Of a DNA stretch of 64,000 bases, positions 21,146 to 40,291 are shown in pieces. The notes below the pieces were generated by a model. The model had not been told where the DNA came from, made no database searches, and saw only the letters and a program-made list of their open reading frames with translations. Source of the stretch: Klebsiella sp. BIGb0138. GTDB taxonomy: Bacteria; Pseudomonadota; Gammaproteobacteria; Enterobacterales; Enterobacteriaceae. Made by a program: the position numbers and the translations under genes. The stretch lies in the NCBI RefSeq assembly GCF_004342285.1, contig NZ_SMCV01000013.1, positions 1 to 64,000 of the forward strand, given 5' to 3'. Each line of letters opens with the position of its first letter. The first letter of the stretch is position 1.

Positions 21146-21147
21146 GC

Positions 21148-21726: not shown

Positions 21727-21787
21727 GCCTGCACCTTTTACAAGGAAGAAGGTAAATGTGGGTTCCTTCTCATTTTGTGGCAGGCAT

Positions 21788-21811: not shown

Positions 21812-21829
21812 CCTTTAAGTTTGATTCTA

Positions 21830-22153
21830 CTAGATAAATAAAATATCTTTGAATGAGTAAATCATCACCGCAGATACAATCAAAAAAACAATTATAAAGC
21901 CAGTGCTTTTATCCGTTTGCACAGGGTATTCCTTAGCAATAGAAAGCAGTGTTTTTCGCCTGTAAAGATAGATAATGAATGGAAAAATCAATAAAGAACC
22001 AGCCCCCCAAACAATAGGGGATAAACCACTTCTGTAACCTTTGTTAATACCATCTTTAACTGTATGCATTCCAATATGGTTGTTTGCTGCATCAAAAAAC
22101 ACCCAGAAGCAACATACAACAACCACTAGGTTTATTAAAATACCACCGACCAT
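21830..22153 (-). CDS. AT-rich three-TM membrane protein of unknown function
   Basis: This 107-aa protein starts at ATG 22153 (MVGGILINLVVVVCCFWVFF) with GGAG eight bases upstream. It has three hydrophobic segments: residues about 3-20, GAGSLLIFPFIIYLY and IIVFLIVSAVMIYSF. Base composition is clearly more AT-rich than the genes on either side. It is squeezed between mor and a terminator. These features fit a moron (extra gene), possibly for superinfection exclusion, or a small lysis protein. No family is recognised. Confidence 0.65.
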   Translation of the reverse strand: MVGGILINLVVVVCCFWVFFDAANNHIGMHTVKDGINKGYRSGLSPIVWGAGSLLIFPFIIYLYRRKTLLSIAKEYPVQTDKSTGFIIVFLIVSAVMIYSFKDILFI

Positions 22154-22158
22154 TATTA

Positions 22159-22551
22159 TCACTCCATGTCCAGAGAATACTGGCGTTTACTTACTTCCAG
22201 CCTGCGCATACGCCTGATAGCTTTATACACTGTTTTATAGGTCACCTGGTAGCGCTCAACCAGTTCCGGGATGTTGTTACCCTGAAAATCACGCCAGATA
22301 CGCATATCCCTGACGAGCTGCTCAAGCACCTGACCGCGTGGAAAGTAAACCTGCATCCCGCCGATTTTACTGCTGATGGCTGCGACCAGTTCAATGGAGT
22401 GACGCGGGTCATAACCAAAGCGCTCAAGCTCCTTACGCAATAAAGCATTCAGTTCGGCCAACAACGACGGAAAGCGGGAACTCTCCATCTCATCATCAAT
22501 ATGGTCCAGAATGCTGTCGTCCTGAACATCACCAAAGAGATCGTCACTCAT
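22159..22551 (-). CDS. mor: Mor-type transcription activator
   Basis: This 130-aa protein starts at ATG 22551 (MSDDLFGDVQDDSILDHIDD), behind AGGTGG and overlapping the gemA stop. The whole sequence parallels Mu Mor: SRFPSLLAELNALLRKELER, a dimerisation domain with GGMQVYFPRGQ, and a C-terminal helix-turn-helix (IPELVERYQVTYKTVYKAIR). Mor binds as a dimer upstream of the middle promoter and recruits RNA polymerase through sigma and alpha. No second Mor/C family gene is visible, so this protein may activate late genes directly. Confidence 0.93.
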   Translation of the reverse strand: MSDDLFGDVQDDSILDHIDDEMESSRFPSLLAELNALLRKELERFGYDPRHSIELVAAISSKIGGMQVYFPRGQVLEQLVRDMRIWRDFQGNNIPELVERYQVTYKTVYKAIRRMRRLEVSKRQYSLDME

Positions 22552-23102
22552 TTTTTCCACCTTCTGGCTGCGACAGCGTAAGCGCTGCAGATTGTGTCAT
22601 AGTCCCGGCTTTCGTCACCGGTGACCGGGTTTTCGGGGAGTCGGGCATGGTGTGCCAGCATGGCTTTTTTCATCTCCCGGATATGCCATTGCTTCAGGCT
22701 CTCTAGCAGGTTGTCCTCGGCGTCGGCTCGTAACCATTCAAGGCTGGAGACGCCAGCACCGCCATTACGGATGCGAGTCTGGCGCTGGACAAAATGGTCG
22801 AGCGCAATATCGCTACCGTCCCGGATAAACCCCTCTTTAAACATCGTTTTCCATATTGCACGGATTTTCAGGCTCACATCTGACGGGGCAGACATGCGGC
22901 GCTTAGAACGGCGCACAGGTTTGCTTTTGAACCCCTTAGCCTCCAGTGCCTGGATAACATTCTGCAGCTCGATGATGGTCATCTCGCGGCAGCTCGACTT
23001 GCCCGGAACTACCGCCCCCAGCAGGGAGCGGTAAGTGTCATCGTCAAGCGCCAGCTGGCTTTTGGCGATATGGATAATCTGGATTGCGTTTGAGCGGGTC
23101 AT
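22548..23102 (-). CDS. gemA: GemA-like regulatory protein (DUF1018, Mu gp16)
   Basis: This 184-aa protein starts MTRSNAIQIIHIAKSQLALD; the IAKSQLALDDDTYRSLL...GKSSCREMTIIELQNVIQALEAKGF start is the DUF1018 hallmark. In Mu, GemA alters host gene expression and DNA supercoiling. A second helical region (IRAIWKTMFKEGFIRDGSDIALDHF) follows. GGAGG precedes the start and lies inside the preceding 37-aa gene. Confidence 0.88.
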   Translation of the reverse strand: MTRSNAIQIIHIAKSQLALDDDTYRSLLGAVVPGKSSCREMTIIELQNVIQALEAKGFKSKPVRRSKRRMSAPSDVSLKIRAIWKTMFKEGFIRDGSDIALDHFVQRQTRIRNGGAGVSSLEWLRADAEDNLLESLKQWHIREMKKAMLAHHARLPENPVTGDESRDYDTICSAYAVAARRWKK

Positions 23103-23105
23103 TGG

Positions 23106-23219
23106 TTACCTCCTGTAGTTGACGAGGAACATAAAGCCGATAAACGCGCAAATCACAGCGACAGCGCCCACAACGATGACAACGCCCCAGAACAGAAATG
23201 TGCCGATTATTGCAATCAT
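23106..23219 (-). CDS. Single-TM microprotein (37 aa)
   Basis: I translated this by hand: ATG at 23219, then MIAIIGTFLFWGVVIVVGAV and on to IGFMFLVNYRR with TAA at 23106. It is one long hydrophobic helix with a basic C-terminal end, predicted as a single membrane span. It exactly fills the gap between the coiled-coil gene (stop 23220) and gemA, and its last two Arg codons supply the gemA ribosome site. Tight packing argues it is translated. The function is unknown. Confidence 0.6.
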   Translation of the reverse strand: MIAIIGTFLFWGVVIVVGAVAVICAFIGFMFLVNYRR

Positions 23220-23633
23220 TTACTCAGCCTCCAACTTGATGCCAGCTCTGGCTAATGCTGCGTTAACCTCTGCTTCCGGATATGCATATATCGCGCGGTG
23301 CGAATCAATGAAATCACGGCGATGCAAAACGCTAATAGGCTGCGACAGCTTCACGGTCCTGGACTCCAGCTCCTTGGCGTATTTACCAAGTTCGGCGTTT
23401 TTCTTCTCCAACTGATCAATGCGGTCTTGCTGCTGATTGATATGGTCGTTTTGAGCGGCATTAGCACTCTGGGTCTTATCCAGCACCTCTACCAGCGCCT
23501 CGACCGTTTTCAGCGAAAAGCTGGGAAGCGTGGCATTGATAGTCTTGATGCGCTCGATAGACGTCTGAGGCCCCCATGCTGGCATCGCCTTGCGGGCCGC
23601 AATATCAGCTTTAATCTGCTCTAAATTAATCAT
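23220..23633 (-). CDS. Coiled-coil early phage protein
   Basis: This 137-aa protein starts at ATG 23633 (MINLEQIKADIAARKAMPAW), overlapping the MazG-like stop by 8 bases; the longer frame upstream is only overlap. It has an Ala-rich N-terminus, then a coiled coil (ALVEVLDKTQSANAAQNDHI ... DRIDQLEKKNAELGKYAKEL) and a C-terminal segment with RRDFIDSHRAIYAYPEAEV. Proteins like this occur in enterobacterial prophage early regions. The function is unknown. Confidence 0.7.
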   Translation of the reverse strand: MINLEQIKADIAARKAMPAWGPQTSIERIKTINATLPSFSLKTVEALVEVLDKTQSANAAQNDHINQQQDRIDQLEKKNAELGKYAKELESRTVKLSQPISVLHRRDFIDSHRAIYAYPEAEVNAALARAGIKLEAE

Positions 23634-24123
23634 GAGCTTTATCCTCAGCCCGCATACGTTCGGCATACTGCTGCTCGCGCATCATCTTCTGCGCGGCCTG
23701 CATCAACAGACTGACGGCCATGCGGGCGCGGGCAGCGGCATAGCGGTTACTGGTTTTGGTGTCGCGATAGAGCGTTTCGGCAAGGCCCAGTTGTTCGGTC
23801 GCTTCCTCTAGAAGCCCCATAACTGACGGACCAAAGGGGCTGAGAGGCTGTGACTCCACGCCTACAATCTGCGCCAGCCGTGCCATCTTGCGATTCTTTT
23901 CATGGTCTATCATGGGGCCCATCCCGTTATGACGCAGTTGCTCAATCATGATCTCGACGTCCGCCGCCTCTTCGGCCACTTTGCTGCTGTCGGTTTTGTG
24001 GTTAAGAAAACGCGAGCAGGCGGCTGATAATTCGCTGGCTTCTTCGGAAAGAACCAGCACCTGAGATTCAAATCCCCATTTAGCAAACGCAGCCTCAAAA
24101 ATACCTTTCGTTTTCGGATTCAT
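23626..24123 (-). CDS. MazG-like nucleotide pyrophosphohydrolase-type protein
   Basis: This 165-aa protein starts MNPKTKGIFEAAFAKWGFES. The segment LSEEASELSAACSRFLNHKT followed by KVAEEAADVEIMIEQLRHN gives the E-x2-E...E-x2-D metal-binding pattern of MazG-like all-alpha pyrophosphohydrolases. Phage MazG proteins have been proposed to lower ppGpp or sanitise nucleotides. The C-terminal half is a separate helical part with no recognised domain. Confidence 0.72.
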   Translation of the reverse strand: MNPKTKGIFEAAFAKWGFESQVLVLSEEASELSAACSRFLNHKTDSSKVAEEAADVEIMIEQLRHNGMGPMIDHEKNRKMARLAQIVGVESQPLSPFGPSVMGLLEEATEQLGLAETLYRDTKTSNRYAAARARMAVSLLMQAAQKMMREQQYAERMRAEDKAHD

Positions 24124-24203
24124 AATATGTCCTTACTGATTTTCGGCGTGAGCAACCCCACGGCGCTGACGCCGGAAATAAAACAAAGTTAATTAACGAA
24201 TAT

Positions 24204-24821
24204 TCAGAGTTTGGCTAAATCCAGCGATATCTGTTTATAAGTGCCATCATCCTGACGCTCATATAAACGCAGATACTGGCTGGTTCCCGTGACCTGGATA
24301 GCATCGGCCACGGCGTCCATCGCTTCATTCCATTTGGCATCGTCAATATTCAGTGAGCGGAGACCCAGAACCTGATTGATATCAATCCGGCCCTGTTTAT
24401 TGACACGGAAGGCATGATCGACCATCGCCATAATCTTTTCGTTAGCCCCGGCAGACCATTCTCTGATGCAGTCGTCAATCAGCTTCTTTGCCGCCTGAAT
24501 ACGCTCATCAAAGATGCGATGCTCGCCCACGGCGCGAACCAGCTTATAACGGCCATCAAAGCTGACCAGCGTGACATTGCCCTTGGCACCGCCATATTCC
24601 ACGCCGTATTCCGCTGCTGAAAGGTCGATAAAATCACCGATTTTAGCCATAGAACCGAGCTTGAACTCGACCAGAGACTGACGCTGCAGACGAGCTGCCT
24701 CAACGATGCCGAGCACCACTTCATCACGCAGTTTATCCAGCGGTTTAATCTGTGACTCAGGAACTAAATGACCCTGAGCGTTAATCCGGTAACCGTCCGG
24801 AATGGTATTTGCAGTATTCAT
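24204..24821 (-). CDS. DUF3164 early phage protein
   Basis: This 205-aa protein starts MNTANTIPDGYRINAQGHLV. The opening PDGYRINAQGHLVPESQIKP and the middle GNVTLVSFDGRYKLVRAVGE...FDERIQAAKKLIDDCIREW are diagnostic of DUF3164, which is widespread between the transposition genes and gemA in Mu-like phages. Its role is not known; the position implies a function in replication or host takeover. Confidence 0.88.
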   Translation of the reverse strand: MNTANTIPDGYRINAQGHLVPESQIKPLDKLRDEVVLGIVEAARLQRQSLVEFKLGSMAKIGDFIDLSAAEYGVEYGGAKGNVTLVSFDGRYKLVRAVGEHRIFDERIQAAKKLIDDCIREWSAGANEKIMAMVDHAFRVNKQGRIDINQVLGLRSLNIDDAKWNEAMDAVADAIQVTGTSQYLRLYERQDDGTYKQISLDLAKL

Positions 24822-24836
24822 AAAGTCCTCACTGAA

Positions 24837-25124
24837 TTAATAGCAATCTGAATAAACAATATTCGAAACAACACGGCGACTTAATTCCATTTTTTCGGCA
24901 ATAACAGGAATGGTCAGGCCCTCTTTATAAAGCTCACGGCAAAGGTAGATATCATGATCATCCGATGGTTTAACCAGAACGGACAAGCCCCAGCGGTTAG
25001 CCTGAGACTGAATGGCCTGACGGGTGCGGTTGAGTTTCTCGCCCATTTCCGCCGCCGTCATTTTCCCGGCATTCTCACAGACAAACTGAATTTCGTACTT
25101 GGTCCACTTACGACGCTTTTCCAT
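24837..25124 (-). CDS. Small helix-turn-helix protein
   Basis: This 95-aa protein starts MEKRRKWTKYEIQFVCENAG. It contains two HTH-like stretches: TAAEMGEKLNRTRQAIQSQA near residue 25 and LTIPVIAEKMELSRRVVSNI near the C-terminus. The first resembles a SANT/Myb-like or GcrA-like fold that phages use in small regulators. It is clearly DNA-binding in character; the target is unknown. Confidence 0.7.
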   Translation of the reverse strand: MEKRRKWTKYEIQFVCENAGKMTAAEMGEKLNRTRQAIQSQANRWGLSVLVKPSDDHDIYLCRELYKEGLTIPVIAEKMELSRRVVSNIVYSDCY

Positions 25125-25133
25125 GATTACCCC

Positions 25134-25391
25134 TTATTTTTCCACGTACTCTTTAGTAATAATTTCTGTGAAGCGAATTAATGCATCACAGGCATCATGT
25201 TGGTTATCAGCTTCGGGAACACCAGGAACAAGCAATTGCTCATGTGTCCGGGAGTGCCTCGCCCGCACATCAATTATTTCCCGAACTCTTTTTTCTTCAC
25301 CGGTGATAATGGGTAAAGCACCATCAGGGAAAGTTTCGCCAAACTCGATTAATCCCGAAGCCCAGGCATAAGCTGTAATTTTTGTTTCCAT
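25134..25391 (-). CDS. Unrecognised early phage protein
   Basis: This 85-aa protein starts at ATG 25391 (METKITAYAWASGLIEFGET), 6 bases after a GGAGG. It is acidic with GEEKRVREIIDVRARHSRTH and a C-terminal helix (HDACDALIRFTEIITKEYVE). No motif allows a functional call. It is packed 9 bases from the HTH gene and 2 bases from the next gene. Confidence 0.65.
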   Translation of the reverse strand: METKITAYAWASGLIEFGETFPDGALPIITGEEKRVREIIDVRARHSRTHEQLLVPGVPEADNQHDACDALIRFTEIITKEYVEK

Positions 25392-25393
25392 GA

Positions 25394-25633
25394 TTACCTC
25401 CAGATAACATGACAACCTTCGAGCGTGGCCATCCACACGGAGCGTGTCCCGGTGGGGCAGCGTTCAATCAGATGATTAGCCCTGTTCACCAGTTCAGTCG
25501 GCGGACAGGTGATTTCCAGACACGGGCGGCGCATCCACACCCGCATCTCCGTAACACGACTACCGCGCGCCTGCAGCCATGCCTGCGCAGCGGTGGCCAT
25601 ACCAACATGTTCAGCAATACGTTCAGTAATCAT
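25394..25633 (-). CDS. Unrecognised early phage protein
   Basis: This 79-aa protein starts MITERIAEHVGMATAAQAWL, just downstream of the B gene (4-base gap). It is predicted to be mixed alpha/beta with a Trp- and Arg-rich middle (EMRVWMRRPCLEITCPP). I recognise no family. In Mu the corresponding position is occupied by small dispensable early genes (kil and others). Confidence 0.6.
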   Translation of the reverse strand: MITERIAEHVGMATAAQAWLQARGSRVTEMRVWMRRPCLEITCPPTELVNRANHLIERCPTGTRSVWMATLEGCHVIWR

Positions 25634-25637
25634 GGTG

Positions 25638-26585
25638 CTAACCCCTCAGTAACGTTGAAACATCAACATCCAGATCCAGATCACGCAGTGCCTTGAGGAT
25701 GTAGCTCTCGCTGACAGCCTGACCTGCGCCGTGAGCCGTCATTGCTGCAAGCCGCAGGGAATGACTGAGGATGCGCAGTGCGCCGGGCTTCTGCGCAATC
25801 TTCTGAAGCAGATCGCGCTCTTTTTCGCCGTCGATATGCCAGGCGTCAGCAATCGCTTCCACATCCGCCTTTTTGGTCTTGTTAATCGCCACACGTTTGG
25901 CAATACGTGAGAACAGGCGGGCGAACTCGACGGTGCGGTTACCGCCGGTCATGTTGCTGTAGACGCGGTGGTTACCCATCAGCACCAGCCCGACGCGGGT
26001 GGCCTCCTGCAGCAGGCGCAGCTCTTCGAGAGTTTCCGCGCCCAGATGGTCAGCTTCATCAATGATGACAAGTCCCTGAGTACCATCAAGACGGCGGCGC
26101 AGAGCGCGGGCAAGCGGTCCTTTACGGCGCGGCGCATCATTCATCCCCAGCTCATAGGCCAGTTCGGTCAGGCACTCCAGCACACTGGCGCAAGACGGGG
26201 TGATCGTTATCAGCCAGACGTTATCGTTACTGCGGCGATATTCACGTGCCGCCTCTGACTTCCCGACGCCAGGGTTACCACAAACCACGCCGATGCACTC
26301 CGTCAGGTGGGCATAGCGAAAGGCTGTCCAGATTTGTTTAACGGTCGGGGTTTCAATAAAGCGCGGGGGCTCCGGCAGTTCTGCGGCAGAATGCTGTTTA
26401 TTGACCCAGCGCTGCAGAGCTTTCTCGACGCGGTCGTTATCACCGGCATATTTATTGTTCATGAAGCCACTGACCACACCGGTTGATAAGCCGGTTTCAC
26501 GGGCAACCTGAGCAAAAGTAAAACGGGCACCATCAACAAGGTTGCGCAGAACCTCGCGAATATCGGAAATATTCACCTCAGACAT
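25638..26585 (-). CDS. B: MuB-like ATP-dependent target-DNA activator
   Basis: This 315-aa AAA+ protein starts MSEVNISDIREVLRNLVDGA behind GGAGTG. It has an N-terminal HTH (FTFAQVARETGLSTGVVSGF), a Walker A (GNPGVGKS), a Walker B (QGLVIIDEADHLGA) and a sensor-like MGNHRVYSN. MuB binds target DNA as ATP-dependent filaments, attracts the transposase and provides target immunity. The C-terminal domain (LRILSHSLRLAAMTAHGAG) is also conserved. It follows the A gene by 28 bases. Confidence 0.95.
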   Translation of the reverse strand: MSEVNISDIREVLRNLVDGARFTFAQVARETGLSTGVVSGFMNNKYAGDNDRVEKALQRWVNKQHSAAELPEPPRFIETPTVKQIWTAFRYAHLTECIGVVCGNPGVGKSEAAREYRRSNDNVWLITITPSCASVLECLTELAYELGMNDAPRRKGPLARALRRRLDGTQGLVIIDEADHLGAETLEELRLLQEATRVGLVLMGNHRVYSNMTGGNRTVEFARLFSRIAKRVAINKTKKADVEAIADAWHIDGEKERDLLQKIAQKPGALRILSHSLRLAAMTAHGAGQAVSESYILKALRDLDLDVDVSTLLRG

Positions 26586-26613
26586 AATTCACTCCATTAT
26601 TTGATAAACGGCC

Positions 26614-28692
26614 TTAAATAGCGTTTTTACGTTTATTTGATTCCAGCATATCCAGCGAGTTATTCAGAAATTCATCCTCGCTGTATTCCTCTTCTTCAGA
26701 CACAACCTGCATAGCGGGAACCGCCCGGCTGACAGGGCGATAGACATTGCTGTCCAGCCAGTCCGGCCCTGCTGGTTCAGAGAGGGTGAGCACATTTTCG
26801 GCCTCGGCCAGACGGACTTTTTTCTCACCACGCTCGCGCATACCTTTGATACGTTTCTGTTTCTGCCAGTATTCTGCCGTAACAGGGAATGCTGCTTTCT
26901 TGTTGCCATCCCAGATGGCTTCACATATCAGTGAACCATCCATACGACGAACGATAACCTTCGTAGCATCGTGAATGTCGTAACTAACACGGACCTTGCG
27001 GCCATGCTCTTCGCGAAGCGCTTCGGAATAATAAAGGTTATTGAAAAGCTGGATTTCGCAACGCCTGACTGAGCACTCAGTCTCCGGCATAAACATATGA
27101 CGAAGTTCAATATCGGAGAGCCATTCAATTTCAGTTTTTTCTTTTTCCAGCTTGTACTTACGAAATTGCGCTGGAGTGAAATGCTCGCCATTAGCTTTCA
27201 GTGGCAGTGACTCGTGCGCGCGGTTGTTGTACCAGTGAACCCCGGCTTCAATTTCCCCAATAAGCTCATTCCATGACGGGAAATCGCGAAGGGTCTGCTC
27301 CTGCTTAGCTGTCAGCTCACGCCCTTTATCCACCGCGTTCAGCGCGGCGATGAGGGATTTTGATACCTTACGTGTGGTGCTTTTATCCGCGCCAGTTCCG
27401 TAGTAGGTAGCAAATTGGCGGGATATACGCATCCCCAGCGTTTTGTTAAGGATCTCAATGATGCCGCGCCCTTGCGGGTTCTCAGGAATACCCAGACGGT
27501 GGTCAACCCCGAGACGCGGTAAAATACCGGTGATATTAGCGTCAAGCGTGCTATTGGTCTCACCGCCACCGTTATCGGAATAATAGATATAAGGCACCCC
27601 GTTATTCTTAATGCCGTGACGCAGGGCATCAGCAACGGCAATAACGCTTTCTGACAGAGCCAGACTCCAGCCCACAATATATCGGCAACTCCCGTCCAGA
27701 ATGAACGTCACTTCTGGTGTGATAGGGTTACCATGTTCAGGAGAGGCGACTTTCATCTTCATGCCGTGGCCATCCCCGATCCAGACGTAATTAACCGGCA
27801 GGCAAAGCCAGTCACGGCGTACAAATCCCTCAATCTGACGGGCTTCACTGCCGGTGATCCGGCGATGCTGTTTCACCACTTCCGGGAGTTTATCCATCGC
27901 ATAGCGCACTGTGTTATAGGTCGGAGCAGAGAAAAGCATCTCCGGCTGATCCGAATATCGCGAATACCAGCCATGAATAAAATCCTCGTATGCCTCAGCC
28001 ATCGTTACACCATTGGGATTACGGTAATACGCCAGAAAATCAGGCAACCACGCAATTTCCTCAGGCTCCACGCGCTGGCGCTTGCCAGGTGCAAGGAGCA
28101 CCAGACGCTCAGTCGATGTTCTGGCTTTTTTGAAATCAGCCATCCAGCGCTTAAGGGAGATCTCGCTCAGGGTGCGTGATGAACCTTTTTTGGCATTGGC
28201 TAACGTCACCTGTGTGGCCAGATGCTCAGGTAACTCGCCGCTGCGGGACCGTCGGACGATTTCCCTGATGGCTTTGGCGCAGCTGAATCCCGGTATTTCC
28301 CCCAGTTTCATGACTTCCGATACCAGCGCAATACGGGCATCAGCAATCTTTTGCTGGTCGCTGGTTAAGCCAGTAAGCTTTTGCTCCATCAGCACGGGGT
28401 GATCACGGTAAAGCGATAACCGGGTATCACTCTTTTCCGTCACCGCTGAACGTTCAGGAGCAGGCAACGCTGCATCCTGATTGTTCATCAGCTCTTTAAC
28501 CTGACGGTCACGCAGCGCTTTCTGAGCAACCAGAGGAAGGCTGTCAATGTGATACTCAAACGCCTTACTTCCCTGACGCTTACGGACCAGAGTCTGATTC
28601 TGTTTGACCAGTTTGCCCATCATGGCTCTGATGCCCTGTGGCGTTCCCGGTAAACCCGGCAGGCCCGCTAATTCATTCACCGTGGCAAACAT
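26614..28692 (-). CDS. A: MuA-like DDE transposase
   Basis: This 692-aa protein starts at ATG 28692, nine bases after AAGGA; an in-frame GTG sits at 28698. Domains: an N-terminal DNA-binding region opening with ELAGLPGLPGTPQGIRAMMG (as in MuA), a core with the catalytic acids in WIGDGHGM, YYSDNGGGE and NPQGRGIIE, and a beta-barrel. The tail DEFLNNSLDMLESNKRKNAI is almost the same as the MuA C-terminal peptide that binds MuB and ClpX. It carries out cut and strand transfer at the phage ends. Confidence 0.96.
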   Translation of the reverse strand: MFATVNELAGLPGLPGTPQGIRAMMGKLVKQNQTLVRKRQGSKAFEYHIDSLPLVAQKALRDRQVKELMNNQDAALPAPERSAVTEKSDTRLSLYRDHPVLMEQKLTGLTSDQQKIADARIALVSEVMKLGEIPGFSCAKAIREIVRRSRSGELPEHLATQVTLANAKKGSSRTLSEISLKRWMADFKKARTSTERLVLLAPGKRQRVEPEEIAWLPDFLAYYRNPNGVTMAEAYEDFIHGWYSRYSDQPEMLFSAPTYNTVRYAMDKLPEVVKQHRRITGSEARQIEGFVRRDWLCLPVNYVWIGDGHGMKMKVASPEHGNPITPEVTFILDGSCRYIVGWSLALSESVIAVADALRHGIKNNGVPYIYYSDNGGGETNSTLDANITGILPRLGVDHRLGIPENPQGRGIIEILNKTLGMRISRQFATYYGTGADKSTTRKVSKSLIAALNAVDKGRELTAKQEQTLRDFPSWNELIGEIEAGVHWYNNRAHESLPLKANGEHFTPAQFRKYKLEKEKTEIEWLSDIELRHMFMPETECSVRRCEIQLFNNLYYSEALREEHGRKVRVSYDIHDATKVIVRRMDGSLICEAIWDGNKKAAFPVTAEYWQKQKRIKGMRERGEKKVRLAEAENVLTLSEPAGPDWLDSNVYRPVSRAVPAMQVVSEEEEYSEDEFLNNSLDMLESNKRKNAI

Positions 28693-28694
28693 GA

Positions 28695-28919
28695 TCACAA
28701 GTCCTTGCTGTAGCGGCTGGGCCAGATGGATGACGGCTCCAGATTGAGAGCATTCGCGATGATGCGCTCACCTTTAGGGTATGAACGAGCCAGCGCATTT
28801 TTCAGTGTGTCGGGACTTAACCCCGCACTGGTGGAAAGGCTGCGCATTGTCACGCCGCGCTTGTGAAGCTCGGCGACAATGTCAATGCGATGCCAGTCAC
28901 GCACTTCATTTCTTTCCAT
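28695..28919 (-). CDS. ner: Ner-like early regulator
   Basis: This 74-aa protein starts MERNEVRDWHRIDIVAELHK and ends near IWPSRYSKDL, very close to Mu Ner in both places. The HTH is TMRSLSTSAGLSPDTLKNAL. Ner is a Cro-like repressor that binds between the divergent early and repressor promoters and turns both down during lytic growth. Its stop overlaps the in-frame GTG before the transposase ATG. Confidence 0.94.
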   Translation of the reverse strand: MERNEVRDWHRIDIVAELHKRGVTMRSLSTSAGLSPDTLKNALARSYPKGERIIANALNLEPSSIWPSRYSKDL

Positions 28920-29100
28920 AGTTCGTTTACTCTTAAAAGTTATCCGCCGGAATAATCCTGCGGGGTTATCCGTTGGAGTAAGTATTGATCCAATGTGAGT
29001 TAATGTAAAGCAAAAGACCAGCTTTCTTTTCTCAATTGAGATACTTGGCGCGAGTGAGTTATTTTTATCATGAATTTCAATTTGTTAGGCGGAAAGGAAA
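28920..29100. promoter_or_regulatory. Divergent early/repressor control region
   Basis: This 181-base region separates ner (minus) from the repressor (plus). It holds a perfect palindrome CTCAATTGAG (29031-29040), two TTATCCG words near 28940-28970 (one in the near-palindrome TTATCCGCCGGAATAA), and on the minus strand TTTACA-N17-AATACT as a weak early-promoter candidate. On the plus strand TATCAT near 29070 is a -10 candidate for the repressor. In Mu this interval holds the operators and the transpositional enhancer. Exact assignments are inference. Confidence 0.6.
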
Positions 29101-29736
29101 ATGAATAAAGCAAAAGAAATAGAAGTTTCTTTTACTCAATATGGAAAGGAAAGTATTCGCGATAGGATAAAGAGTCTTTTTAAGGGAAGAAGCTTAAGGC
29201 GAGTATCTCTCGATTGGGACCTCCCATACTCCACGCTCAATAATTACTTTGCACGCTCAGCGACTCCAAGCGTGGACGTGTTAGTTAAAATTTCTGATAT
29301 TGAGAATGTGAGCCTAAACTGGCTTGCAACAGGTCGCGAGGACACCCTAGCCCTAGATGAGTCCGATAGTACCCAAGACTGTCGCATACGAACGGATATG
29401 GCTAGATATGCAGAGGATAATGAAATCCTTGCTGGGGCAACAGCAACCCCGCTGAAAGATGACAAGTTTATGTCCCTTACATGGTCAATGTTTTTCGAGG
29501 CATTGAACCATGAGGAGAAATCACATCTAATTGATATTTACGCAAAAATTGGAGCTAAAGGCGTTTTGGCATTGCTTAGTAACGTCAATGGTTCTACCAC
29601 AGAATTACTTAACCTTTCACCAGAGGAGCAAAGACGCTTAATGCACATGAATGAGCAAATCAAAAAAGGGTCATCTGAGACTGGTGAAGACGTAGCCAAG
29701 CCAGGCCCGTCAAGTTCCAGCAAGAAGGCCAGTTAA
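29101..29736 (+). CDS. CI-like phage repressor
   Basis: This 211-aa protein starts MNKAKEIEVSFTQYGKESIR behind GGAAAGGAAA. It has an N-terminal HTH (LRRVSLDWDLPYSTLNNYFA ... SVDVLVKISDIENVSLNWLA) of the type found in CI-like repressors that recognise paired operators. There is a helical middle and a polar C-terminal tail (ETGEDVAKPGPSSSSKKAS). It lacks the S24 peptidase Ser-Lys dyad, so SOS-type self-cleavage is unlikely. It is transcribed away from ner, which is the arrangement of Mu c. The low-complexity tail may be a protease-sensitive switch as in Mu Rep; that is inference. Confidence 0.85.
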   Translation: MNKAKEIEVSFTQYGKESIRDRIKSLFKGRSLRRVSLDWDLPYSTLNNYFARSATPSVDVLVKISDIENVSLNWLATGREDTLALDESDSTQDCRIRTDMARYAEDNEILAGATATPLKDDKFMSLTWSMFFEALNHEEKSHLIDIYAKIGAKGVLALLSNVNGSTTELLNLSPEEQRRLMHMNEQIKKGSSETGEDVAKPGPSSSSKKAS

Positions 29737-29772
29737 TGCGGTTCTCCACCTTCATTTTATCGCGGTATACAC

Positions 29773-29799
29773 CAGCCGCATTTAACCGGCCTGTTTTTT
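29773..29799 (+). terminator. Putative terminator after the repressor gene
   Basis: CAGCCG, an 8-base loop and CGGCCTG (one bulged base), followed by TTTTTT. It lies 37 bases past the repressor stop and would keep repressor transcription from reading through the phage end. Confidence 0.55.
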
Positions 29800-29860
29800 A
29801 GAAGTATGTTAGAATTGATTTTGAACGATGGTTTTGTAGTTTTAAAGTCCAGAAAGTAGC

Positions 29861-29999
29861 AGTATCAAATGATTTGCCGATCGGCTTCATTTTCTTCAAA
29901 CCGGTATCAAATCCAATTTTGAGCCGACCCCTACAATCCCGCGAGTTTCCGCTTAATTCCTCATGTTCCCGGAAGTATCAAATCTATTCGTTCTTCACA
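29861..29999 (-). repeat. Phage left end with three transposase-binding-like sites
   Basis: The 10-mer (A/G)GTATCAAAT occurs at 29974-29983, 29903-29912 and 29861-29870, always in the same orientation. Distances from the presumed terminus (29999) are about 16, 87 and 129 bases, with a wide first gap and a 42-base second gap, as for L1, L2 and L3 in Mu. The terminus read inward is TGTGAAGAAC; the TG dinucleotide matches transposable phage ends. The sites are visible; binding is inferred. Confidence 0.8.
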
Positions 30000-30004
30000 T
30001 AACG
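30000..30004. repeat. Candidate 5-base target duplication (TAACG)
   Basis: Mu-family insertion duplicates 5 bp. The first host bases are TAACG, giving codons (C)TA-ACG for Leu-Thr of the shell gene. The second copy should flank the other phage end, which is outside the window. Confidence 0.4.
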
Positions 30005-30553
30005 GTGGCGGTAGAAGCCGCCGATGCCGCAATGAAATCGGCTAATGTCGGCCTGATCGGATACGAGCTGACGAAAGGCGGGGGACTGGTGACGGTAAAG
30101 TTTAGCGGTGAGGTTGGCGCCATGAACGCCGCCGTCGCTGCCGGTGTGGCTGCGGCCAGCCGGGTGGGGAGCGTCTACGCGTGGAAAATCATCGCCCGTA
30201 CCGCAACCGGCATCGATAGCCTGATTGCCTCCACGGAAACCTGCGGTATTGCTCCCGACCCTGTGGCGGCCGCCGCGACAGTGCAACCCCCGGCGGCGGA
30301 ACAGAAAGCGGTCGCCATTCCGGTGGTTAATGTCGAATCTGATATGACGGCGGCCTCTTGCGGTGAGCTAAGCGACAGCGTGTGCGCTGAGGCACCGCTA
30401 AGCGGAGAGTCCGCCACCCAGGCAAGCGAATCGCCGCAGCGTAGCGAGCAGGGTGATGAGACGGAAAATGGCGGCGATCGCATCATCAGTACGCCGGCGG
30501 AAAAGGCGGCGCCCAAACCCGCGCGTCCTCGTCCCAAAAGCCCCCGACGCTAA
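30000..30553 (+). pseudogene. BMC-H shell protein with long C-terminal tail, 5' end cut by prophage
   Basis: From base 30000 the frame reads (L)TVAVEAADAAMKSANVGLIG then GGLVTVKFSGEVGAMNAAVA, the body of a BMC-H hexamer subunit. The usual start (about 14 residues with the first beta strand, like the PduA opening) is missing. The prophage terminus supplies an accidental in-frame ATG at 29963 without a ribosome site, so a fused product is unlikely to be made or to fold normally. After the domain comes a tail of about 90 residues, Ala/Pro/Glu-rich and ending in a basic stretch (KPARPRPKSPRR), a layout seen in PduK/EutK-type shell proteins. The gene is on the strand opposite the main operon. Confidence 0.88.
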
Positions 30554-30737: not shown

Positions 30738-31562
30738 TCAAGGCGTGGGGTTATTCACCGTCTTGCCGGCTTTGGCGGCGGGCAGATGGCATCCGATGCC
30801 AAAGCGGTAAATGGCCGCCCCGACGATCCCGCCCACCACCGGCGCAATCAGCGGGACAAGGAAGTAGGGAATCTCTCTACCGCCCGTCATCGCCATCGAT
30901 CCCCAGCCGTTCAGAAAGGTAAACAGTTTCGGACCGAAGTCGCGGGCCGGGTTCATAGCAAATCCGGTGAGCGGCGCGGTCGCGGCGCCGATCACCGCCA
31001 CCAGTAAACCGATTAACAGCGGTGCAAGCGGCCCTTTCGGCACACCGTTGCCATCATCGGTCAGTGCCATAATAAGACCGATCAGCATTGAGGTAATGAC
31101 GATTTCCACGAGCGCCGCCAGCCAGACGCTGATATTCGCCGCCGGATAGGTGGAGAATATGCTGGCCAGATACAGGCTGTCCTGACTGCCGCGTACCATT
31201 TGGTGGGCTTGTTCATAGTCGGCGAACATATTGTGGTAAAGGAGATAGGTGAGCGCGGCGCCGCAAAACGCCCCGGCCATCTGGGCCAGAATATAGGGCA
31301 CCACTTTTTTGGCGTCAAAGCTGGCGAACATCCATAGCGCGATAGTGACCGCCGGGTTAAGGTGCGCGCCCGAGATGCCCGCCGTCAGATAGACCGCCAG
31401 AGCGATACCCAGGCCCCACACGATGCAGATTTCCCAAAGACCAAAGCTGGCGCCGGCGAGTTTTGCCGCGCACAGCACGCTGGTACCGAAAAATATAAAT
31501 AAGCCGGTGCCCAGAAATTCCGCAAGACAAGGCCCGGTAACTGCTTCACGAGATTCACTCAT
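30738..31562 (-). CDS. pduF: PduF-type propanediol/glycerol diffusion facilitator
   Basis: This 274-aa MIP-family channel starts at ATG 31562 (MSESREAVTGPCLAEFLGTG) with AGGA eight bases upstream. Six membrane spans and the two half-helix motifs are visible: GAHLNPAVT and GFAMNPARDFGPK. GLWEICIVWGLGIALAVYLT and ALTDDGNGVPKGPLAPLLIG are very close to Salmonella PduF. It would admit 1,2-propanediol or glycerol through the inner membrane. As last gene of the operon it is strong evidence that the pathway substrate is a diol/triol rather than choline, whose loci usually carry other transporters. Confidence 0.9.
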   Translation of the reverse strand: MSESREAVTGPCLAEFLGTGLFIFFGTSVLCAAKLAGASFGLWEICIVWGLGIALAVYLTAGISGAHLNPAVTIALWMFASFDAKKVVPYILAQMAGAFCGAALTYLLYHNMFADYEQAHQMVRGSQDSLYLASIFSTYPAANISVWLAALVEIVITSMLIGLIMALTDDGNGVPKGPLAPLLIGLLVAVIGAATAPLTGFAMNPARDFGPKLFTFLNGWGSMAMTGGREIPYFLVPLIAPVVGGIVGAAIYRFGIGCHLPAAKAGKTVNNPTP

Positions 31563-31648
31563 AGTTTTTTCCTGTATTAAGCGATGCGTGGTTTCATCTC
31601 TTAACGCTGCTGGGGACAAAGGATAAGAGAGCTAAATCATGCTGCTGG

Positions 31649-32566
31649 TTAACCGCCGATATGGCAGTGAAACCCCATCGATTCGACGACTTTTTTCAGG
31701 CTGGCCATTTTGTCCTCGGGATGCGACTTTGCCTCGCCCATGGGATAAATGCGGCCCAGCAGGTTATATTTATTTTCACCAAAGGTGTGATAAGGCAGCA
31801 GATGAAGGGTATCAACGCCGGACATGAGCCGGGCAAATTCGGCAATGCTGCGAATCTCATCTGCGCTATCGTTGACGCCGGGAATGACGGGAATGCGAAC
31901 AATAACGTGGGTGATAAAGGAAATACGGATAAGGTTTTCCAGAATCCGCTCGTTATTGACGCCGGTATTTTGTTCATGAACCACCGGGTTAATGGCTTTA
32001 ATATCCGTCAGCGCCAGGTCAACCCACGGAAAGACCTCCTCAATCACCTCTTTGCTGGCCATCCCGGTGGTTTCCATCGCCGTGTGCCACCCTTTTGCTT
32101 TACAGGCTTTTAAAAGCTCACGGGCAAATTCCGCTTGTGCCAGCGGTTCGCCGCCTGACAGGGTAATTCCCCCGCCTGAACGACGAAACAGGTTCTCCTC
32201 TTTCTGTAATTCACGCATCACCTCGCTGACGGTCATGCGTTTCCCTTTCATTTCCAACGCCCGAGTCGGGCAGACTTGCGTGCATTTACCGCACTGAATG
32301 CAGCGCTCGCGGTCGATGAAAAAGGGATTGCCGGGGGAGAGCGCATGCTGCTGACAAACATCGACGCATTTTCCACAGCGGATACAATCGCTCTTTTTAT
32401 AAATTAACTCAGGTTGCGGGCGCTGCGATTCCGGATTGCTGCACCACCTGCAGGCCAGCGGGCAGCCTTTAAAAAAAGGGATGGTGCGGATGCCGGGACC
32501 ATCATGCAGGGAATAGCGTTGAATATTAAATAAAACGCCTTCGGTATCGTATTCGACTCTGTTCAT
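31649..32566 (-). CDS. Glycyl radical enzyme activase (radical SAM)
   Basis: This 305-aa activating enzyme starts at ATG 32566 (MNRVEYDTEGVLFNIQRYSL). The radical SAM cluster motif is C-x3-C-x2-C in FFKGCPLACRWCSNPE. Two ferredoxin-type 4Fe-4S sites follow: CIRCGKCVDVCQ and CIQCGKCTQVCP, as in activases of glycerol dehydratase, CutC and related enzymes. SGGGITLSGGEPLAQ is the SAM-binding GGE motif. It generates the 5'-deoxyadenosyl radical that abstracts hydrogen from the glycine of the dehydratase encoded just upstream. It works only anaerobically. Confidence 0.95.
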   Translation of the reverse strand: MNRVEYDTEGVLFNIQRYSLHDGPGIRTIPFFKGCPLACRWCSNPESQRPQPELIYKKSDCIRCGKCVDVCQQHALSPGNPFFIDRERCIQCGKCTQVCPTRALEMKGKRMTVSEVMRELQKEENLFRRSGGGITLSGGEPLAQAEFARELLKACKAKGWHTAMETTGMASKEVIEEVFPWVDLALTDIKAINPVVHEQNTGVNNERILENLIRISFITHVIVRIPVIPGVNDSADEIRSIAEFARLMSGVDTLHLLPYHTFGENKYNLLGRIYPMGEAKSHPEDKMASLKKVVESMGFHCHIGG

Positions 32567-32675
32567 AACATCACTCGTCAAAAAAGCGACCATCAGGCAA
32601 CAGCAAGTCAGCCGCTAAAATCGGGTCTGATAAGGGGCCATGCGTACCAGTACGGCCCCGATCGGTAGGGCAAAA

Positions 32676-35219
32676 TCAGAATTGCTGCTCGGTACGACTG
32701 ATAATGTCATCCTGAACTTCTTTAGCCAGCACCACGAACTGAGCGCTATAGCCGGCGACGCGTACTACCAGGTCCTGATGCTGCTGCGGGTTTTTCTGCG
32801 CTTCCAGCAACGTGTTGCGGTCAATCACGTTGAACTGAACGTGCATCCCTTTCTTATCGAAGTAGTTGCGCACCAGCCCGCCGAAGTTACGCAGACCCTT
32901 TTCGCCCGCCAGAGAGGAGGGCAGGAATTTCTGGTTATAGAGGGTGCCGTTCGAGGCGATGAAGTGATCCAGTTTCGCCACCGAGTTGGCCGCTGCGGTA
33001 GGGCCAAGGGTATCTTTCCCCTGACGCGGAGAGACGCCGTCGGCCAGCGGTTCTTTCGCCAGACGGCCATCCGGGAGGGCGCCGACGTCCTTACCAAACA
33101 GAACGTTAGCGGATACCGGGTAGATCCCGGCCTGGAAACGGCCGCCGCGTGGGTTGGTATACTTCTCCACTTCCTGGCAATAAATCAGCGCGCAATGACG
33201 GGCGACGAGGTCCACGTCGTCGATGTCGTTACCGAAGCTCGGGGTGTTTTCCAGAATATGACGGATCTCTTGATAGCGGGAGCTGTCCGTGGCCGGCGCT
33301 GAGCCGGCGCTGGAGAGCTGGCGGTAAACTTCATTTTTAATCGCTGCCGGATTGAGCGAGCCGTGCTGGTCGATAATACGTTTGACCACGTCGTAGATAT
33401 CCTGCTCGTCCAAAGAGGCTTTCGCCGACCCGGCATGAGGGTTCCCTCCTGACGGATAGCCGAAGTTAGCATCCAGCGCCCCTTTCAGCTCCTGCAGCGT
33501 CAGACGCCGATCTTCGAAGACCTGTTTCTGTATGGCATAGACGGAGTCGCCGGTATCTGCGATGCCGAAGGCCTGCGGACCGGTAAAGTTATAAATCGCG
33601 CCGCCTTCCTGCAGGGATTTGCCGCGACCAATACAGTCATCGACCAGCGCCGACAGGAACGGTAGCGGGCAGCGTTCGCCGTGGGCGATATCGACGCTGT
33701 TGCACGCTTCCACCAGCTGGTGGACGAAGTGCGCCATCTGTTGTTTGAAGGCGGCGTAGAAGTCGTCGATGCTGGTGTACTGCGTCATCTCGCCGGTGAC
33801 CGGGCCGAGTTGTTGACGACCAGAACGGCCGTTGTTGAGGGTGATTTCCAGTACCTTCGCCACGTTGAAAAAGGCCGCGTCATGCCAGCCTTCGGTACGA
33901 TGCGGCGCCTGCGGCTCCACGCAGCCGATAATGCAGTAGTCGCGGGCGTCATGCAGCGATACTCCGCGGTTTTGCAGCGCCGGAATGATCACCTCGTCGT
34001 TGTACATCGCCGGAACGCCAAGACCAAGCCGCACCAGTTCGCAGGCGCGATAGAGAAACTCATCCGGCGTGCCCTGCCAGACGCGAATGGAGAAGGAGGG
34101 CTGCGGCAAACGGACGTGGGCCGTCGCTTCCATGCACATATAGGTCAATGGGTTGGTGGCATCGCGACCGTCCTCGGTCTGACCGCCAACGCACAGGTTC
34201 TGGAACACGGCATAGCCGGCGAAGGCCTGGGCGGAAATCTCATCGCGCGTTTTGTTGATATCATTCAGTTTGATCCAGCAGCAGTCCACCAGCTCCTGGG
34301 CAAATTCGCTGCTGATGGATTTATCCGCCGCCAGATAGGGATACATATACTGATCGAAACGGCCGGGAGAAATAGAGTGGCCGCTGGATTCAATCTGCAG
34401 CATGCTCTGTATAAACCAGAACGTCTGGCAGGCCTCCCAGAACGTCGTCGCGCCGTATTCCGGCACGCGGGTACAGTTTTGCGCAATGAGCTCCAGCTCG
34501 CGCTGGCGTGCAGGGTCGCGCTCTTCGCGGGCAAGACGAGCGGCTTCCTGGGCATAGCGGTGAGCAAAATTGATTGCCGCGTGATAGCTCAGAATAACGG
34601 CGTGATAAAACTGCTCTTTTTTGATGTAATCCGAGGTGCCGCGATCGAGGTTTTCCAGCGCGCGGGTCGCTTCATCGATGATTCCGCGAAAGCCGATTTT
34701 CAGCACTTTGCCATAGTCAACGCTGACGTGTCCGACTCCGCCGAAGAAGTAGTTACCCACGGTGAACACGCCGTTGCCCATACTCTCTTTTGTCCCTGCG
34801 GACATATAGGACGCCGCCAGCGAACTGGTGGTTTTACCCGGCCAGTATTGAAAGGCCTGGCGCAGCTCGTCGGCCGTTTTCTTCTCAATGATAAACGGGT
34901 CGGCAACCCGTTGCGCCATGGTTTCGAACTCTTTTTCGACCCAGTCGTAGGAAAATTCAGGGCAAATTTCCGTCGAACGCGGGTTGATGGTGACCGCGCC
35001 GACAATTAATTCATCAGGACGGATGGTCACCGGCAGTTCATTGAATATTTTCTCAACGACTTTTGCCCGCCGCATAATCGCGGGAAGGTGTTCATTCTCT
35101 TTATAAGCTTCGGTTGCCAGTACCGCACGTTCAGATTCCACATAAGGTTTAGCCTGCAGAATCATATTTTTCAGTCTTACCACACGATCGGTCGGATGAG
35201 TAAAGCCTTTCTCTAACAT
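32676..35219 (-). CDS. B12-independent glycyl radical diol dehydratase
   Basis: This 847-aa enzyme starts at ATG 35219 (MLEKGFTHPTDRVVRLKNMI), 7 bases after GGGAG; the frame is open to a GTG at 35261 without support. Active-site residues fall at the same numbers as in C. butyricum glycerol dehydratase: His164 (GVGHVSVDYGKV), His281-Ser282 (SGHSISPGRFDQ), Cys433 and Glu435 (IIGCVEPQ) and Asp447 (TEGWHDAAFF). The glycyl radical site is Gly823 in RVAGYSAQF. The choline-lyase residues after GCVEPQ (Thr/Tyr in a TSTGY-like stretch) are absent. It removes water from 1,2-propanediol or glycerol to give the aldehyde. Compared with the 787-residue clostridial enzyme it has about 60 extra residues near 586-648. 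Confidence 0.93.
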   Translation of the reverse strand: MLEKGFTHPTDRVVRLKNMILQAKPYVESERAVLATEAYKENEHLPAIMRRAKVVEKIFNELPVTIRPDELIVGAVTINPRSTEICPEFSYDWVEKEFETMAQRVADPFIIEKKTADELRQAFQYWPGKTTSSLAASYMSAGTKESMGNGVFTVGNYFFGGVGHVSVDYGKVLKIGFRGIIDEATRALENLDRGTSDYIKKEQFYHAVILSYHAAINFAHRYAQEAARLAREERDPARQRELELIAQNCTRVPEYGATTFWEACQTFWFIQSMLQIESSGHSISPGRFDQYMYPYLAADKSISSEFAQELVDCCWIKLNDINKTRDEISAQAFAGYAVFQNLCVGGQTEDGRDATNPLTYMCMEATAHVRLPQPSFSIRVWQGTPDEFLYRACELVRLGLGVPAMYNDEVIIPALQNRGVSLHDARDYCIIGCVEPQAPHRTEGWHDAAFFNVAKVLEITLNNGRSGRQQLGPVTGEMTQYTSIDDFYAAFKQQMAHFVHQLVEACNSVDIAHGERCPLPFLSALVDDCIGRGKSLQEGGAIYNFTGPQAFGIADTGDSVYAIQKQVFEDRRLTLQELKGALDANFGYPSGGNPHAGSAKASLDEQDIYDVVKRIIDQHGSLNPAAIKNEVYRQLSSAGSAPATDSSRYQEIRHILENTPSFGNDIDDVDLVARHCALIYCQEVEKYTNPRGGRFQAGIYPVSANVLFGKDVGALPDGRLAKEPLADGVSPRQGKDTLGPTAAANSVAKLDHFIASNGTLYNQKFLPSSLAGEKGLRNFGGLVRNYFDKKGMHVQFNVIDRNTLLEAQKNPQQHQDLVVRVAGYSAQFVVLAKEVQDDIISRTEQQF

Positions 35220-35298
35220 ACAATAACTCCCGAAATAATATAAGCGTGATTCATTAACCACACCTGAGTTGTGTTACCTGACGGCAGTGACGGGTACG

Positions 35299-36209: not shown

Positions 36210-37718
36210 TCAACGAATATTGAGCGCTTCAACCATCACGCACCGGCGATGTCTGGCGAAATTGCGCGCCGACGTCAGCCCTTCACCGGTCGGGCCGGCA
36301 ATAGTAAACGTGGCGTGCCCCTCGCCCCCGACGCCAAGTCCGGCATATGAGGGACCGTTTTTTACAAAAATCGTGGTCTGGATCTGTCGCGCCATTTTGG
36401 TGAGTTTTTCGACGTTGGTAGAGTGCATCATGGCGGTGTGGCGATTGCCATGCTCGACCTTTACCGCCAGATCGATCGCTTCATCGACATTCTCTACCCG
36501 GACCACCGGCAGAATCGGCATCATCAATTCGTGTACCACGAAGGGATGGTCGCGTTCGGTTTCAATCAGCACCACTTTGATCTCTTCCGGCACGCTAATG
36601 CCAATTTGCTGCAGAATGTAGCGGGCGTCTTTGCCCACAAACGCGGTGTTCGGGCCGGTCCCTTTTTCATTCAGCACCAGCGCCTGCAGTTGCTGAATCT
36701 GCTGCCGGTCGCACAGCAGCCAGGCGCCGCTTTTTTTCATGCAATGGATCAGGTAGTCAGCCGCTTCATTGACGACAATGACCTCTTTTTCCGCCACGCA
36801 GGGGAGGTTGTTATCGAAGCTGCAGCCGTTGATGATATCCCGGGCGGCTTTCTCAATATTCGCGGTCTCATCCACCACCACCGGAGGGTTGCCCGCGCCC
36901 GCGCCGATCGCCTTCTTACCGGACGACATCACGGTTTTCACAATCGCCGGTCCGCCTGTCGCCACCAGCATATTGATCCGCGGATCGCTGATTAATGCGT
37001 TGGTGTTGGCAATCGACGGGCTGGCGACCGTCACCACCAGATTGTCAGGGGCGCCCAGGCGGGCCAGCTGCTGGTTGATGAGGGTGACGCAGTGCAGCGA
37101 AACATGGCGTGAACGGGGATGCGGGCTGAACACCACCGAGTTGCCCGCCGCCAGCATGCCGATGGTGTTGCAGATAATGGTCTCCGTCGGATTGGTGGTG
37201 GGGGTGATCGAGCCAATGACGCCATAGGCGGAGTATTCGCTCAGCGTCAGGCCGCCGTCGCCGCTCTGTGCGGAGGTGACCAAATCTTCGACCCCCGGCG
37301 TTTTTTGCGCGGCAACGCGGTTTTTCACCAGCTTGTCGGCATAATTACCCATCCCGGTCTCTTCCACGGCCATGGTGGAAAGGGTTTGTAAGATGTCCTC
37401 CTGCAGGAAAAACTGGCGAATGCCGCCAACAAAACGGGCGCGATCCTGCATTGAACAGTGGCGATACTGGATTTGCGCCTGCTGCGCTGCCGTAATGGCT
37501 TCGTCCATCGTCGCAAAAACGCCCTCCGCGGATGCGCTGTCGCCGGCGGTTGCGGGCCCGGCATGGCTTGCCAGCACGCTGGCGACAATCGCTTCGATGC
37601 TCTCCCGGTCGAGAGGCGAGGCGGCGATCGGGGCGCTCTGCTCGGGCGCTGGCGCCGTCGTTTTGCTGTATTTACTCAGCACGCGGGAGACGGCCTGAGT
37701 AATTTCAAGATCGTTCAT
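36210..37718 (-). CDS. pduP: CoA-acylating aldehyde dehydrogenase (PduP-like)
   Basis: This 502-aa enzyme converts propionaldehyde (or another aldehyde) with CoA and NAD+ to acyl-CoA. The catalytic Cys is in SFDNNLPCVAEKE and the nucleotide loop in GAGAGNPPVVVDET. The C-terminus has GGEGHATFTIAGPTGEGLTS. It is about 40 residues longer than Salmonella PduP because of the N-terminus, which has two amphipathic helices: LEITQAVSRVLSKYS (residues 4-18) and RESIEAIVASVLASHAG (about 38-54). Either can be an encapsulation peptide; the second looks most like known ones. Confidence 0.93.
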   Translation of the reverse strand: MNDLEITQAVSRVLSKYSKTTAPAPEQSAPIAASPLDRESIEAIVASVLASHAGPATAGDSASAEGVFATMDEAITAAQQAQIQYRHCSMQDRARFVGGIRQFFLQEDILQTLSTMAVEETGMGNYADKLVKNRVAAQKTPGVEDLVTSAQSGDGGLTLSEYSAYGVIGSITPTTNPTETIICNTIGMLAAGNSVVFSPHPRSRHVSLHCVTLINQQLARLGAPDNLVVTVASPSIANTNALISDPRINMLVATGGPAIVKTVMSSGKKAIGAGAGNPPVVVDETANIEKAARDIINGCSFDNNLPCVAEKEVIVVNEAADYLIHCMKKSGAWLLCDRQQIQQLQALVLNEKGTGPNTAFVGKDARYILQQIGISVPEEIKVVLIETERDHPFVVHELMMPILPVVRVENVDEAIDLAVKVEHGNRHTAMMHSTNVEKLTKMARQIQTTIFVKNGPSYAGLGVGGEGHATFTIAGPTGEGLTSARNFARHRRCVMVEALNIR

Positions 37719-37762: not shown

Positions 37763-38548
37763 TCAAATGTACGGCGTGGTGGTCGATTTGAGCGGGGCCG
37801 GATCGAGGGTCGCCAGCAGCTGCTTCCCGACGTCCCTGGCGGCAATGACCGCTTGCCGCACCGCACCGGAATCGCCGGCAAAAGTGAAGATCACCTCATT
37901 ACTAAAGCTGGTGCCGTGCGCCGGGCTGGCGTATCCCACCGGCTCGATGACGGCGGCCTTGGCGGCGGCATCAGCCACCACGACGCCAATCGCCGCCGGA
38001 GAGGCGCAGGTCAGACCGAAGGATTTACCCAGCGGCGCGCCAAATGCCTTATTAAGGGCGCTGCTGGCGCGCGCGGTGTACTGGAACTCCAGATGACCTG
38101 CCGGCGAGCCATAGACATCGCCCATGGTGCGTTGAATTTCGCCCAGCGCTACTTCCACCGCGCGGCGAACATCGGACACATCGGAAGCGCCGAAAATAAT
38201 CAAGCAGCCATGGCCGCCGCCGCCTTCGGTATCGCGAGCCAGCTCAATAGAGAGAATTTCGCTGTTGGTGGCTTTAATCGCTTCATCCGCGGCAAAGATA
38301 TGCGGGCCGGCCCCGGTGCGGGCGCCAAGAATACCGATTGAGCGATATTTCTTGTCGATATTCATGACTTCATGTAATTGATGGTCGACATTGGCAATAA
38401 CCAATCCGATAGTATGCCCGAGGGCGGTACCGACAAATTCTGTTAAACCGCAGCCGATAACACTGGCCACCGTTTTATTATTTGTGCTCGCATCAGTCTG
38501 TTTATTCATTACTTCAGATATAATCTGTTCAACAAGATTATCTCTCAT
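37763..38548 (-). CDS. pduB: PduB-like trimeric (BMC-T) shell protein
   Basis: This 261-aa protein starts MRDNLVEQIISEVMNKQTDA, with the PduB N-terminal extension, then GCGLTEFVGTALGHTIGLVI and KYRSIGILGARTGAGPHIFA. Two tandem BMC domains make a pseudohexameric tile. The C-terminus GTSFSNEVIFTFAGDSGAVR also matches PduB. Salmonella PduB has an internal start giving PduB'; no equivalent Met exists near residue 37 here, though Met14 could serve. It follows pduA by 21 bases. Confidence 0.93.
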   Translation of the reverse strand: MRDNLVEQIISEVMNKQTDASTNNKTVASVIGCGLTEFVGTALGHTIGLVIANVDHQLHEVMNIDKKYRSIGILGARTGAGPHIFAADEAIKATNSEILSIELARDTEGGGGHGCLIIFGASDVSDVRRAVEVALGEIQRTMGDVYGSPAGHLEFQYTARASSALNKAFGAPLGKSFGLTCASPAAIGVVVADAAAKAAVIEPVGYASPAHGTSFSNEVIFTFAGDSGAVRQAVIAARDVGKQLLATLDPAPLKSTTTPYI

Positions 38549-38569: not shown

Positions 38570-38851
38570 TTAACTGACGGCTTTCGGCAGGATTTTTTCC
38601 ACTTCAATATGCGGGCGCGGAATAACGTGTACGGAGACCAGTTCCCCGACTTTGCCTGCCGCCGCCGAACCGGCATCCGTGGCCGCTTTTACCGCACCCA
38701 CATCGCCGCGAACCATGACGGTTACTAACCCTGAGCCAATTTTTTCATAGCCAACCAGGGTGACGTTAGCAGATTTAACCATGGTATCTGCGGCTTCAAT
38801 TGCGGAAACCAGACCTTTTGTTTCAACCATACCTAATGCTTCTTGTTGCAT
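38570..38851 (-). CDS. pduA: PduA-like BMC-H shell protein
   Basis: This 93-aa protein starts [20 protein letters not shown] and is close to Salmonella PduA throughout. It keeps the pore motif KIGSGLVTV and the edge Lys of VKSANV. It should form the main hexameric facets and a pore for propanediol. GAGG precedes the ATG. The 200-base gap upstream suggests that pduA heads a second transcript for the shell and enzyme genes. Confidence 0.95.
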
Positions 38852-40265: not shown

Positions 40266-40291
40266 GATAACCCCTGTCTGTAGCAGTCTTT

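Follow-up and report, generated by a model that had tools for sequence, protein, structure and literature searches.

The stretch of DNA analysed here (the window, 64,000 bases) is the beginning of contig C13 (bases 1-64000 out of 139,081), which belongs to a 5.60 Mb draft genome consisting of 32 contigs. A Mu-type prophage meets the body of a BMC-H shell gene with a long, basic-ended tail that is read from base 30000 onwards, and is followed by the minus-strand genes of a microcompartment locus, which span 30738-44019 (Table 1). The junction of phage and host DNA, which the initial annotation had placed at about 29999, is located between bases 29999 and 30000, with the Thr codon ACG at 30002-30004. 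The ORF 29963-30553 (196 aa) matches the BMC domain with 66.7 bits over model positions 9-74 of 75, positions 1-8 being absent. Besides the genes listed in Table 1, the prophage carries terminase, portal, major head protein, tape measure and baseplate genes left of the junction, in agreement with its original description as Mu-like.

Table 1. Features of the prophage, the interrupted gene and the microcompartment locus (window coordinates unless a contig or locus is named), and pairs of phage ends used for the duplication count.
Feature	Position	Strand	Remarks
Mu-type prophage, left (repressor/MuA) end at 29999	1..29999	-	right end, 4224 bases, on C1:1-4224 (L038), outside window
MuB-type DNA transposition protein	25638..26585	-	phrog_296, 9.7e-110
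MuA-type transposase	26614..28698	-	phrog_310, 2.3e-171
Phage repressor	29101..29736	+	phrog_3037; transcribed towards shell-gene fragment
ORF start of phage origin, 13 chance residues	29963..29999	+	without ribosome site
Phage left terminus: inward TGT, 14 bases, TTTGATAC repeat	29975..29999	-	
TAAC target duplication, right-hand copy (4 bp)	30000..30003	.	other copy C1:4225-4228
Tailed BMC-H shell gene body (codons 15-197 and stop)	30000..30553	+	codons 1-14 and start on C1
MIP channel (glycerol/propanediol facilitator type)	30738..31619	-	
Radical SAM glycyl radical activating enzyme	31649..32593	-	
Glycyl radical enzyme	32676..35261	-	
DJ-1-like protein	between glycyl radical enzyme and aldehyde dehydrogenase in gene order	-	
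Aldehyde dehydrogenase	36210..37718	-	
PduB-type BMC-T shell protein	37763..38548	-	
Intact BMC-H shell protein	38570..38851	-	
Acetate kinase, DUF336 (HbpS-like) protein, BMC-P (EutN/CcmL) shell protein	39054..41093	-	
Flavoprotein-like protein, PduL, iron alcohol dehydrogenase	41075..44019	-	
Pairs counted	window 29999-30003 and L038 (C1) 4224-4228; L040 8289 and L045 8930		
Pairs counted, continued	L116/L145, L126/L141, L132/L146, L108/L161, L129/L166		

Both halves of the interrupted shell gene

A search with bases 30000-30720 against 20 genomes of the genus (the own genome included) matched ten of them, five strongly besides the own, and in these five the DNA similarity starts exactly at base 30000. 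The four weak matches are three 91-codon BMC-H genes and a 29-base match in G016. In all five same-genus genomes with a close homologue the gene is uninterrupted at the junction site and is read through it as M(S/A)GQSLGLIETVGL followed, across the junction, by T; the upstream continuation is MSGQSLGLIETVGL (MAGQS.. in G006), preceded by a ribosome site. The gene thus starts in all five relatives elsewhere than at the equivalent of 29963. A DNA search of the own genome with the same query revealed no second copy of the tailed BMC-H gene.

Since C13 ends at base 1 of the window, the other phage end is not visible within the window. With the upstream DNA of one relative (G003) as query, the 5′ part of the shell gene was found on contig C1 at 4225-5717. 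Bases 1-4224 of C1 are phage DNA, with the right phage end stopping at 4224. This DNA encodes a protein for tail-fibre assembly, another of 777 residues that shows weak similarity to esterases, and a further one of 242 residues for which Pfam gave no match. Beyond the phage end follow the first 14 codons of the shell gene with their ribosome site, the SAM synthetase gene (4287-5459), an AraC-type response regulator and a kinase-like gene. The supposition that the start of the gene had been moved across the phage is thereby borne out, and a start lies elsewhere in the genome only through the phage separating it from the gene body. The initial annotation had proposed looking for the second phage end, the missing 5′ part and a further duplication copy beyond base 1, and all three are present on C1. 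Its TAACG, however, had to be rejected as target duplication, because the two flanks share only TAAC. After removal of one TAAC copy an open gene of 197 codons results, which aligns across the junction with its counterpart in each of the five relatives (76-82% DNA identity).

A sequence overlap between C13:1 and C1:1 was looked for and not found; the pairing of the two contigs rests on the host flanks and the duplication, the interior not being sequenced through, and from these we infer that they carry one prophage. An estimate of the gap between C13:1 and C1:1 from the coordinates of phage Kp4866-3 was dropped, as it was based on a weak tail-fibre match.

In common with Mu and Mu-like phages, the prophage has MuA- and MuB-type genes beside the repressor at one end, a short target duplication and differing chromosomal sites, the seven pairs of ends described below showing seven different flanks (7/7). 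The nearest phage record found, Klebsiella phage Kp4866-3 (OK490420, an unverified record), covers 87% of window bases 1-24000 with 88.7% identity. A transposase 95-100% identical is present at seven loci, one of which (L107) is the own genome under an IMG/VR name; the two near-identical-transposase records with a readable flank (L108/L161 and G407) are inserted at other sites. The right end was matched in seven of 392 genomes of the family, namely twice in full in G000, over 58 of the 95 query bases, the final one included, in G092, where the contig stops at the phage end and the MuA region is present as well, and over 29 to 57 bases not reaching the phage end in the other five. The corresponding search in E. 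coli genomes gave no match.

Microcompartment locus and fate of the shell subunit

According to passages of PMC4207490, the GRM3 gene list includes SAM synthetase, acetate kinase, a flavoprotein, DUF336, a two-component pair, a EutJ homologue and a peptidase. The locus described here shares with GRM3 the glycyl radical enzyme and its activase, aldehyde and alcohol dehydrogenases, PduL and acetate kinase as well as DUF336, the flavoprotein-like protein (a weak match, 25.7 bits against a cut-off of 22.7), SAM synthetase and the two-component pair, together with BMC-H, BMC-T and BMC-P shell genes; the EutJ homologue and the peptidase are left out of this comparison. It differs from GRM3 in that one BMC-H gene is split by the prophage. 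For the glycyl radical enzyme only the broad subfamily model TIGR01774 passed the cut-off. By its predicted gene content the locus fits the GRM3 type, which passages of PMC6325248 assign to 1,2-propanediol, and this is probably the substrate of the organelle. Domain match and neighbouring genes support the proposal that the interrupted protein is the tailed BMC-H subunit of a glycyl radical microcompartment.

Kinase, response regulator and SAM synthetase are contiguous upstream of the gene in all 11 stretches examined from relatives. On the opposite strand, the gene is followed by the activating enzyme in 10 of these stretches and by the glycyl radical enzyme in 9; the exceptions are L052, which ends before the glycyl radical enzyme, and L068 (Vibrio), which is differently arranged. 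In a wider set of 51 loci, 24 (L047-L073 range; Enterobacterales and Vibrio) have a SAM synthetase gene upstream of the tailed BMC-H gene. One of them, the Symbiopectobacterium locus L073, displays a SAM synthetase match in two pieces and a short BMC frame. The operon (SAM synthetase/tailed BMC-H) ends with the broken gene, which is convergent with the main operon. The prophage therefore splits a conserved contiguous locus, yet the damage is confined to the final gene of the smaller operon; the genes flanking it on either side are present, so that the rest of the locus is kept, as had been stated before. Contig C6 harbors a second microcompartment locus (305737-314386, L002-L005), whose four BMC genes include a tandem of three and which we take to be perhaps a choline (GRM2) locus.

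The ATG at 29963 is situated in phage DNA, in a frame that opens at 29957 and runs on through the gene, and the phage-derived ORF, or a piece of it, might be made and work as an altered shell protein. Its first 13, partly hydrophobic residues stand in place of the lost 14, and the repressor gene points at the fragment; as no terminator-like site was found between the two on the plus strand, read-through from the repressor is possible. The ribosome-site match of this ATG, however, is 1/6, compared with 5/6 for the native start, and near-invariant alignment positions are among the lost residues. The internal in-frame GTG at 30089 equals the native start in its ribosome-site match (5/6), and a shorter piece could start there, but with still more of the domain lost. 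A working altered protein is thus hardly to be expected. The full tailed BMC-H subunit is probably absent, although the remaining frame is still open and no decay is visible. Because the broken gene is the last in its operon, probably only this subunit is lost, and the shell may be built from the intact BMC-H, BMC-T and BMC-P proteins.

A prophage acting as a gene switch is known as active lysogeny, for example in comK of Listeria, where the phage leaves by site-specific recombination. The initial annotation had suggested that microcompartment assembly or its regulation could be switched in a comparable manner, the prophage excising cleanly under some conditions, restoring the shell gene and so controlling the compartment. 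Both cases have a prophage inside a chromosomal gene; moreover, both gene halves are undamaged here and the 4-bp duplication would permit exact restoration. In contrast to the phages of active lysogeny, this prophage carries a MuA-type transposase, and the members of its clade are found at many different sites. Passages of PMC3562280 call Mu insertions extremely stable and describe Mu as copying itself without leaving its site, although rare reversion accompanied by excision is recorded there as well; a switch is unlikely for these reasons. Judged from the sequence, and with the affected gene being the convergent last one of its operon, such control appears very improbable. Return to the intact gene is presumably rare, and nothing seen points to a regulated return. 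A culture of the strain may contain some phage-free cells.

A second prophage in the same genome

The own genome contains a second prophage of the clade, with its left end at C16:28289 (L040 about 8289) and its right end at C23:8930 (L045 8930), which is nested within the gpA gene of a P2-like prophage. Over 2641 right-end bases (L038 1584-4224 and L045 8930-11570) the two prophages of the clade reach 98% identity, compared with 70-85% in their remaining matching pieces. This pattern suggests a putative exchange of tail-fibre genes between them. The right-end fibre genes also resemble those of the Peduoviridae Klebsiella phage MK416018 (78.6%), a similarity which suggests that fibres may be exchanged between phage types.

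Given the shared 2.6 kb and the fact that both prophages are broken by contig ends, C13 and C1 might carry the ends of different prophages, brought together by misassembly or a rearrangement such as recombination between the two, but this has very little probability, for the host flanks of each prophage together make up a single gene, and an identical 4-bp duplication lies on both sides (GTTA and TCCT, respectively), as predicted by simple insertion.

With a probability of roughly 0.92, the arrangement results from the insertion of a Mu-type phage into a shell gene of a GRM3-type locus, with loss of one subunit and retention of the other genes. Both phage ends, both gene halves, the 4-bp duplication and the uninterrupted relatives are seen directly. 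A temperate Mu-type phage would have entered the chromosome by transposition, its position between codons 14 and 15 of the gene that closes the SAM synthetase/tailed BMC-H operon being probably a matter of chance; the cell would have lost one shell subunit while retaining the other genes of the locus. The insertion is ordinary in kind, namely a gene-breaking event by a transposable prophage. No paper combining a Mu-like prophage, a microcompartment and an insertion was found in the literature searched.

Target duplication and phage ends in the clade

The target duplication measures 4 bp in all seven insertions for which both ends were identified, a count that covers clade insertions alone. In phage orientation the duplications read GTTA and TCCT (own genome), ATCA (G416), ATTC (G411), CCTG (G421), ATAC (L108/L161) and CGAA (G418). 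The base preceding the right-hand copy is A in 7/7 cases and the base preceding the left-hand copy is c, g, t, t, g, t and c; as the two are never equal, this side does not admit a reading of 5 bp. On the opposite side a chance match would allow one of the seven (G421) to be extended by one base. The last bases of the right end are TATA in five cases, and ACA and TTA in one case each.

From 34 transposase loci, 14 of which were left out of the initial record set, the searches for phage ends were carried out on 25 virus records. Four of these contain both ends (G411, G416, G418, G421), the left end of G418 being assigned from the spacing of 17 bases that the other pairs show and hence weaker evidence. 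For G406 the partner was another contig of the same metagenome (L161), and G412, the second copy of the own genome under an IMG/VR name, was counted once as C16/C23. The other 20 of the 25 records were dropped with an end or flank missing or not identified; in further regions of G417, G419 and G420 the right end was looked for and not found. Outside the seven pairs, L158 has a right end, and the pattern matches in L155, L157 and L165 consist of a right-end-like stretch followed by other letters.

Phage Mu differs from this clade in both respects, having a 5-bp duplication and CA at both ends. According to passages of PMC8705779 the duplication is 5 bp long in Mu and 6 bp in B3; those of PMC3562280 state that Mu has CA ends and a stagger of 5 bp, and PMC2628397 reports no flanking repeats for KS10. 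A 4-bp duplication in Mu-type phages was not encountered in the passages of these three papers, of PMC5977238 and of PMC6776037, nor among titles and abstract openings, a search to which most subscription journals were closed. It is rather likely that the transposase of this clade, in joining the phage ends to the two target strands, uses positions 4 bp apart, and that it tolerates ends which do not finish in CA.

The strain represents a natural knock-out of the tailed BMC-H subunit and could show whether this subunit is needed in GRM3 compartments. If the 4-bp joining holds true, the clade would add a third spacing to the 5 of Mu and the 6 of B3 and provide a natural variant for asking what sets the stagger in MuA-type transpososomes. 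Neither the value of the knock-out nor that of the duplication depends on a phage switch, and the 4-bp duplication, as a testable variant of Mu transposition, is the part that deserves the attention of specialists.
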